Source: a virus
IMG/VR virus record: IMGVR_UViG_3300042392_000325
Location: 1-36,325 of that record
Length of the DNA: 36,325 nt
Reading direction: 5' to 3' (one strand)
Shown: positions 29,962 through 31,188 of the stretch, piece after piece
Numbering within the stretch: position 1 is the first letter of the stretch
Layout: each line of letters begins with the position of its first letter
Program-made: the position numbers and the translations under genes
Notes under the pieces: generated by a model
Seen by the model: the letters and a program-made list of their open reading frames with translations, nothing else
Databases searched by the model: none
What the model was told of the DNA's origin: nothing

Positions 29962-30298
29962 ATCCGTCCCACTCCCCAGATTCGCTGTCGATTATCAGAC
30001 CACCGCATACGGTGATCACTCGTTTTGCCTTCGCTTCCACTAGCGCCTTGTGCAGCCGCTTTGCCTTCGCGTACTCTTTCATTCCAGAAACATGAGCCAC
30101 CAGACCGATCGCAAACCGGAGATCCAAAAGCTCAGGAACCTCGGTCGGCAGGATCTCGACTTCAGGATACCGCTCGTGGCCCGCATACCGATTCCAGCCT
30201 GCCCAACTGCGACTCGGATCGTGCGCGTGGCAGATCCAGACCCCGGCAGGCTTGAACCCCTGCTTACGCAAGGCGATCAGTGCATCATGGCCCTTCAT
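29948..30298 (-). CDS. Conserved replication-module protein, unknown
   Basis: This 116-residue protein (MKGHDALIALRKQGFKPAGV) continues WICHAHDPSRSWAGWNRYAG with a His/Trp/Cys-rich middle, and the C-terminus is alpha/beta. It lies between the initiator-like gene and the helicase, each overlapping (ATGA and 14 bases), so it is part of the replication unit and may be a loader or cofactor. No family name known. Confidence 0.72.
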   Translation of the reverse strand: MKGHDALIALRKQGFKPAGVWICHAHDPSRSWAGWNRYAGHERYPEVEILPTEVPELLDLRFAIGLVAHVSGMKEYAKAKRLHKALVEAKAKRVITVCGGLIIDSESGEWDGYVPE

Positions 30299-31188
30299 TG
30301 GCCGCCTTTTGAGGCTGCGTGGTTTGTCAGCCAGTCAGGAGAGGCCGATGCCACCGGACGCGTTGGGATGCCCTTCGGTGCGGACTCCTTCCGAACCCAA
30401 GTCTGCCAAGTGAGATTCCAATCCAGCTTCGTCGCGTCCTTGGGTTTTGAGACCCAGTAGCTTCGGAAGTTGTCGGCAACCCACATGGGATTCAGGTCTG
30501 GCCGATTGTCCCGACAAAACTTGATTTGCTCTTCGGACGGAGTCCAGTCAGCGGGGAGGCGCGTAGCGCGAGGTCTTTTCTCCCTCTGCTCTGTCTCTCC
30601 CTCTCCCTCTCCCTCTAGAGTACGACTGCTCAGACCATGCGTAGCATCTTGCTCCGCAGTCTTAGCCCTCTTGCTTCTGTTGCATGGTCGGCACAAAAGT
30701 TGAAGATTGCTTGGGTCAGAATTACCTCCCTTTGACACTGGGAGAATGTGGTCATACTCAATGTTCTCGGTAGATTTGCAGTTCTGGCACTCGCCGTGAT
30801 CTCGCTCCCAAACTTGTCGCTTGATCTTATCGGAGATGTGGCGTGACCCAAAACCATTCTGCGCAGCTAATTGCTGTGCTTTTGTAGCGCCCTGCTGCGC
30901 AGGCTTAGCGTCAAACTCAACCAAGAACCCAAGCTCATAAAGCTCATCCACGATTGCCTTGGATTCATCAGAGCCAATTCTCAACCGAAATGCCAAATCG
31001 TCGTTATCTGGGATAGCCCCATCCTTCTCGGAGGAAATAAGCCAGATAAGAGGAAGATATTTCGCGGACTTTGGCGACAACTTCCAATAGCTTCTGTTAT
31101 CAAGCAAATCCCTATGCAGCTTGATCCAAGGAGGGGATCTGTCTTTGTAGTGCTGGAACTTGTCCCAGTTTTTAGGAGTGAGTTTCAT
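30295..31188 (-). CDS. Replication initiator-like protein with internal HNH domain
   Basis: This 297-residue protein starts at the ATG at 31188 (MKLTPKNWDKFQHYKDRSPP). The N-terminus (about 1-92) is winged-helix-like (WIKLHRDLLDNRSYWKLSPK, then PLIWLISSEKDGAIPDNDDL), as in phage replication organisers. Residues about 115-176 are a full HNH nuclease: C134, C137 in GECQNCKS, D146/H147 in EYDHILP, N161, C166/C169/N170 in LCRPCNRS. The end (about 208-268) has a DnaT-like block LPADWTPSEEQIKFCRDNRP, then NFRSYWVSKP and LTWQTWVRKE. A low-complexity EGEGEGETEQREK linker separates them. It may load the helicase and also cut DNA, or have been invaded by a homing-type nuclease. The first gene behind the small 65-residue protein. 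Confidence 0.8.
   Translation of the reverse strand: MKLTPKNWDKFQHYKDRSPPWIKLHRDLLDNRSYWKLSPKSAKYLPLIWLISSEKDGAIPDNDDLAFRLRIGSDESKAIVDELYELGFLVEFDAKPAQQGATKAQQLAAQNGFGSRHISDKIKRQVWERDHGECQNCKSTENIEYDHILPVSKGGNSDPSNLQLLCRPCNRSKRAKTAEQDATHGLSSRTLEGEGEGETEQREKRPRATRLPADWTPSEEQIKFCRDNRPDLNPMWVADNFRSYWVSKPKDATKLDWNLTWQTWVRKESAPKGIPTRPVASASPDWLTNHAASKGGQ

Follow-up and report, generated by a model that had tools for sequence, protein, structure and literature searches.

An apparent tailed-phage replication initiator with an in-frame HNH domain, interpreted as a homing-type passenger, and a putative origin within its gene

The window analysed here (the whole stretch of 36,325 nucleotides of IMG/VR record IMGVR_UViG_3300042392_000325) encodes an apparent replication initiator in which an HNH domain lies in frame between a winged-helix (wH) N-terminus and a C-terminal module (Table 1). 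With moderate confidence, we interpret this protein as the initiator of a tailed phage that carries a homing-type HNH passenger; the assignment to a tailed phage is based on the terminase, portal, capsid and tail fibre genes recognised elsewhere in the window. In our model, the wH domain would bind repeats encoded within the initiator gene itself and the C-terminal part would help to load the neighbouring DnaB-like helicase. The HNH domain would be optional for replication, present in few lineages and able to move between wH backgrounds. During mixed infection it would cut or nick an HNH-less allele close to where wH and linker meet; the HNH-bearing allele would then serve as the repair template, so that the HNH domain would be copied, often along with the wH coding sequence. 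An in-frame position beside a flexible linker would let the host protein go on working. We prefer this interpretation because the HNH domain, which is optional and mobile, is conserved and lies at an exchange boundary. The putative origin embedded in the same gene appears to be the more general finding.

Table 1. Features of the initiator locus in the window (aa, residues of the initiator protein)
Feature	Coordinates	Strand	Basis or remark
Initiator-like gene, 297 aa (wH, HNH, repeat-coding linker, loosely DnaT-like C-terminus)	30295..31188	-	ORF, Pfam, PHROGs, structure model
wH N-terminal domain, aa 1-95, KNWDKFQH family	30904..31188	-	phrog_26426, family alignment
HNH domain, aa 114-180, four Zn-binding Cys, D146-H147, N161, N170	30649..30849	-	PF01844, invariant residues, PDB matches
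Codons of D146-H147 (predicted catalytic His)	30748..30753	-	sequence, invariance in relatives
GCGGAGCAAGATGCTACGCA, common to HNH-bearing relatives, in place of GATATC/GCTAGC iterons	30638..30657	-	
AGAGNN array (AGAGGG x3, AGAGAC, AGAG), putative origin array, encodes EGEGEGE linker	30589..30616	-	
Loosely DnaT-like C-terminal module, aa 207-283	30340..30570	-	PF17948 below cut-off; phrog_3992, phrog_1408
Segment exchanged relative to syntenic phage L002	30617..31275	-	left edge in 31197-31275, right edge 30617 (array start)
DnaB-like helicase ATPase gene, just downstream of initiator gene	29011..29961	-	PF03796 (E 8e-19), PHROGs

The initiator reading frame opens with an ATG at position 31188, and residues 1–85 of its product match phrog_26426 ('replication protein', E = 1e-14), placing the N-terminus in an initiator DNA-binding-domain family. 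The corresponding fold match is only middling, the closest structures being plasmid Rep, the DnaD N-terminal domain and other winged-helix proteins (Z about 6). The best structural neighbours of the HNH part are HNH enzymes, 5h0m (Z 7.5) and 4h9d; VIA-align Z values of 6–7.5 may reflect merely a common arrangement and these fold matches are only suggestive. An AlphaFold model of the protein (mean pLDDT 82) has three folded parts and disorder at residues 187–202, and Foldseek recovered no PDB structure for it at E ≤ 0.001. The order of domains proposed in the initial annotation, with the HNH between a winged-helix N-terminus and a C-terminal module, is borne out by phrog_26426, PF01844 and the three folded parts of the model. 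Two of its descriptions need qualification: (i) the 'DnaT-like' C-terminus matches PHROGs annotated as 'primosomal' and 'replication initiation' (E = 2e-11 to 6e-10), but residues 210–270 score 18.0 bits against the DnaT family PF17948, for which the gathering cut-off is 25 (the initiator of the closest syntenic phage, at 20.1 bits, is also below it), and the name is used here as a loose label and (ii) the 'low-complexity' linker is indeed disordered at residues 187–202, but it is more than low complexity, as it encodes a repeat at the DNA level.

The HNH domain matches PF01844 over residues 134–175 (47.4 bits against a cut-off of 21.4, E = 2e-12) and PF14279 (HNH_5) with 46.5 bits. The residues initially read as a complete HNH motif, C134, C137, D146, H147, N161, C166, C169 and N170, include the catalytic histidine and the Zn-binding cysteine pairs of this superfamily, and all of them fall in columns that are invariant among the HNH-bearing relatives. 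Values of dN/dS in the HNH coding sequence are 0.06 (L274/P27) and 0.22 (window/L146), in a small HNH-bearing sample where most dS values are saturated; such low ratios point to purifying selection, and the domain is probably active as a nuclease. Alternatively, an inactive HNH could have been retained as an extra zinc-bound DNA-binding module. A Zn-ribbon-like fold is able to bind DNA, but lineages with only 45–63% identity all retain the catalytic His, Asp and Asn residues and dN/dS is low, and we consider this alternative very improbable.

An alignment query gave 555 confirmed relatives, and six of the best 80 of these 555 have an HNH domain at the same position: L146 (63% identity), L147 (51%), L148 (51%) and L149–L151 (45%). 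With the window included, five of about 69 dereplicated wH lineages drawn from the best 80 of 555 carry the HNH, a fraction that overstates its real share because matches were ranked by score. Nearly all relatives in this wH family, hereafter family 1, have the layout of wH domain, embedded repeats and loader-like C-terminus without an HNH, and the C-terminal modules differ among the HNH-bearing members. The initial annotation had held that its proposals would fall if the HNH were always present with scrambled catalytic residues; the domain is instead rare and its residues are intact. The same distribution bears on the idea of an HNH that nicks the origin of its own phage, aiding strand opening or the start of replication. 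The HNH adjoins the putative origin and is under purifying selection, some HNH enzymes nick, and the structural matches include a nicking enzyme (4h9d). However, the same layout lacks the HNH in nearly all relatives, Pseudomonas phages P27 and D14C have repeats, C-terminus and helicase in common, P27 with the HNH and D14C without, and a nick is unnecessary for a helicase-loading layout. Because close relatives do without the HNH, origin nicking for self-replication, which was one of the two initial proposals, is improbable, and a homing-type passenger is the better fit.

The family-1 HNH domains group in a single clade (support 98/87), yet they are found on three or more distinct wH backgrounds, and well-supported branches of the wH tree force at least three changes of HNH label. 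Both trees were built from short alignments; taken together, they imply transfer of the HNH from one background to another, independent of its carrier. In L149, L150 and L151 the HNH coding sequences are identical (180/180 nt), whereas the wH sequence of L150 differs at a dS of 0.77–0.94. It follows that wH and HNH recombine separately, in what may be a single event. Thus, the domain has been both mobile and functionally conserved, and it is probably an active nuclease.

Nuclease-less alleles occupy the same locus in close relatives (L002, D14C and HK639). One IMG/VR contig, L001, is the same phage as the window (100% identity over 10.9 kb), and the closest syntenic phage is L002, also from IMG/VR, whose flanking blocks have 80–90% nucleotide identity to the window. 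The L002 initiator is 215 aa long and has no HNH. From the linker through the stop codon the two initiator genes are about 97% identical, while their wH parts are only about half identical in protein sequence. Since the wH domain is replaced as well, the difference between the two phages is a swapped wH(-HNH) segment rather than a clean HNH insertion. Simple insertion of an HNH into an otherwise unchanged gene can be rejected, as the wH coding sequence also changes in all three swap pairs.

The other two swap pairs come from a second initiator family. Using the HNH part alone as a query retrieved L092–L094, in which an HNH accompanies a wH family unrelated to family 1; their C-terminus matches ORF 54 of Escherichia phage HK639, which itself lacks an HNH. 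Phages P27 and D14C share 98.4% identity as far as initiator codon 8 and 98.6% from the repeats on; between these flanks, P27 has a wH–HNH segment and D14C has a different wH and no HNH. L093 and HK639 show the same swap pattern at 93% identity, and in both pairs the embedded repeats are near-identical with and without the HNH. The P27 'replication initiation protein' (PP740689) and L092–L094 share with the window protein the order wH, HNH, repeat-coding linker and C-terminus, as well as HNH-less near-identical relatives, but differ in their wH family, in having a conserved repeat of their own (CTGATTCC) and in that some of their HNHs group in a separate clade. Of the best 80 loci of this second family in a viral scan, 7 carry an HNH; these HNHs fall into two clades, one adjoining that of family 1. 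The 'replisome organizer' of Acinetobacter NL, which its hit span had suggested as a further HNH-bearing case, was discarded because the HNH motif is absent. Free-standing HNH genes lie directly 5′ of the initiator gene in phages P27, D14C and Louie, and two of them overlap it (L229, 1262–2008; L231, 1262–2008; L226, 1953–2753); BcepMigl gp21, a short HNH protein, also abuts the BcepMigl replication gene.

Swap breakpoints coincide with the repeats. Module swaps at these repeats also occur among HNH-less phages (16 pairs in about five groups), and swapping by itself is therefore no proof of homing. It is the HNH-less alleles, the movement between wH backgrounds and the purifying selection that support the other initial proposal, a homing-type domain that left its host protein intact. 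The HNH-less phages L010 and L011 swap their C-terminal module where the AGAG array ends, around position 5361. Among genome contigs, the full-length initiator query found no relative and the alignment query found 20, none with an HNH; in Oxalobacteraceae genomes (L130–L136, L138–L143), ORFs of ~100 aa encode the wH domain only, with no linker or C-terminus.

The repeats themselves may constitute an origin. The AGAGNN array in the linker is the sole such array in the window, where 0.02 would be expected. In 40 dereplicated family-1 lineages, picked by protein sequence, GAG accounts for 251 of the 260 linker Glu codons, and it alternates with codons that end in A in every case (220/220), which yields a 6-bp-periodic AGAGNN array. 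Outside the linker of the same genes, those amino acids are encoded by codons ending in A in just about a quarter to half of cases. That codon positions 1 and 2 vary while position 3 stays A indicates constraint on the array, and for the same reason its origin as a slippage microsatellite is disfavoured. It is also possible that the GAG repeats may act at the RNA level. The array pattern by itself is non-specific, since about half of the raw matches in viral contigs fall outside the recognised wH family, mostly in PE-repeat proteins. Phage_rep_org_N-type replication proteins (L322, L359, L414) have an array of the same CCA-(GAG NNA)n form directly after the wH domain, which suggests that the array extends beyond initiator family 1; these Gram-positive-type cases were retrieved by the array search itself, and the family match was run for L359 and L414 only.

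A second element accompanies the array. Palindromic GATATC or GCTAGC cores lie 5′ of it in 41 of the 42 HNH-less lineages that have an array, typically at −42, −31 and −20, with a spacing of exactly 11 bp in 46 of 51 cases and a density upstream of the array of 26.7 per kb, compared with 0.5 per kb across the loci fetched. Since a spacing of 11 bp shifts the reading frame, the iteron DNA is translated in differing frames (D-I, I-S, Y-Q), and even so its codons are near-invariant (ATA 23/23, TCA 23/23), a pattern that selection on the protein does not explain. The iterons and the AGAGNN array, repeats of the kind bound by initiators, are probably a replication origin within the initiator gene, as in lambda O (PMC5043065) and SPP1 gene 38 (PMC6316719). 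Both systems share with the present one origin repeats in the initiator gene and an initiator acting together with a helicase or loader from a neighbouring gene. The lambda repeats are 19-bp inverted repeats, whereas the window's relatives have iterons 11 bp apart and an AGAGNN array. To our knowledge, no initiator of the lambda O or SPP1 gp38 type contains an HNH. In the open-access literature, we found the AGAGNN array and an HNH within such initiators undescribed. The block at 20.6–21.1 kb, initially suggested for inclusion in a nicking assay, contains only diverged repeats of 18–27 nt and no tested origin motif.

The window's own initiator gene has the array but no 11-bp GATATC/GCTAGC iterons. 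TGCTACG-type elements substitute for these cores in four HNH-bearing lineages (window, L146, L147 and L149), and the composite pattern of the GCGGAGCAAGATGCTACGCA element occurs once in the window. This replacement raises the question of whether the HNH could be an origin-directed weapon, steered by the wH domain to cut the origins of rival phages or satellites with related iterons while sparing its own variant. A precedent is Odn (Gp88) of Vibrio phage ICP1, in which an initiator-type DNA-binding domain is joined to a nuclease domain of the homing-endonuclease type and which cuts the origins of satellites (PMC8263062). The different iteron block of the HNH-bearing family-1 alleles would suit such a weapon equally well. 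In family 2, however, the pairs P27/D14C and L093/HK639 are near-identical in their repeats, such that cutting these would be suicidal; this argues against the repeats themselves as the HNH target. In addition, Odn is a stand-alone nuclease with a T5orf172 domain directed at a satellite origin (PMC8263062), whereas the window protein, with its HNH and helicase-loader-like C-terminus, appears to be the initiator of the phage itself and not a spare nuclease. We regard an origin-directed weapon as rather unlikely. Combining the two functions, a bifunctional initiator–nuclease in which the phage's own initiator attacks HNH-less relatives at the origin or next to it, and wH, HNH and origin form a selfish cassette with a cut-resistant origin variant, is possible but also on the unlikely side.

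The homing-type passenger that we favour has parallels among phage HNH homing endonucleases and nuclease genes found at sites of exchange; more broadly, homing nucleases are associated with exchange boundaries and domain shuffling (PMC10448857). In both cases the nuclease is optional and mobile, lies close to essential replication genes and coincides with recombination boundaries (PMC10448857); the enzymes described before are usually free-standing or intron-borne, whereas the HNH of the window is in frame inside an essential-type protein. If our interpretation is correct, homing nucleases would be linked to the exchange of phage replication modules, and P27/D14C, as well as HK639 and its HNH-bearing relative, provide natural near-isogenic pairs for testing this. 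The 11-bp iterons together with the AGAGNN array offer a sequence signature of putative origins in many uncultured phages without a mapped origin.

Several further features of these loci were observed. The palindrome CTGCGCAG occurs at 30859–30866 and 30895–30902, 36 bp apart at the wH–HNH joint, and is absent from the rest of the window; L148 has three GCGCAG-centred copies, 21 bp apart, 3′ of its HNH. The GC-skew minimum near 31–32 kb falls in the same place as the gene-strand switch and was given no weight as evidence. A 19-nt inverted repeat (31388–31462; 84% complementary, 37-nt loop) lies between the initiator operon and a YdaS-like regulator ORF at 31497. The early-gene block that includes the initiator also contains a small Cys/His-rich ORF (26906–27199, minus strand) that matches phrog_1588 and has weak HNH similarity.
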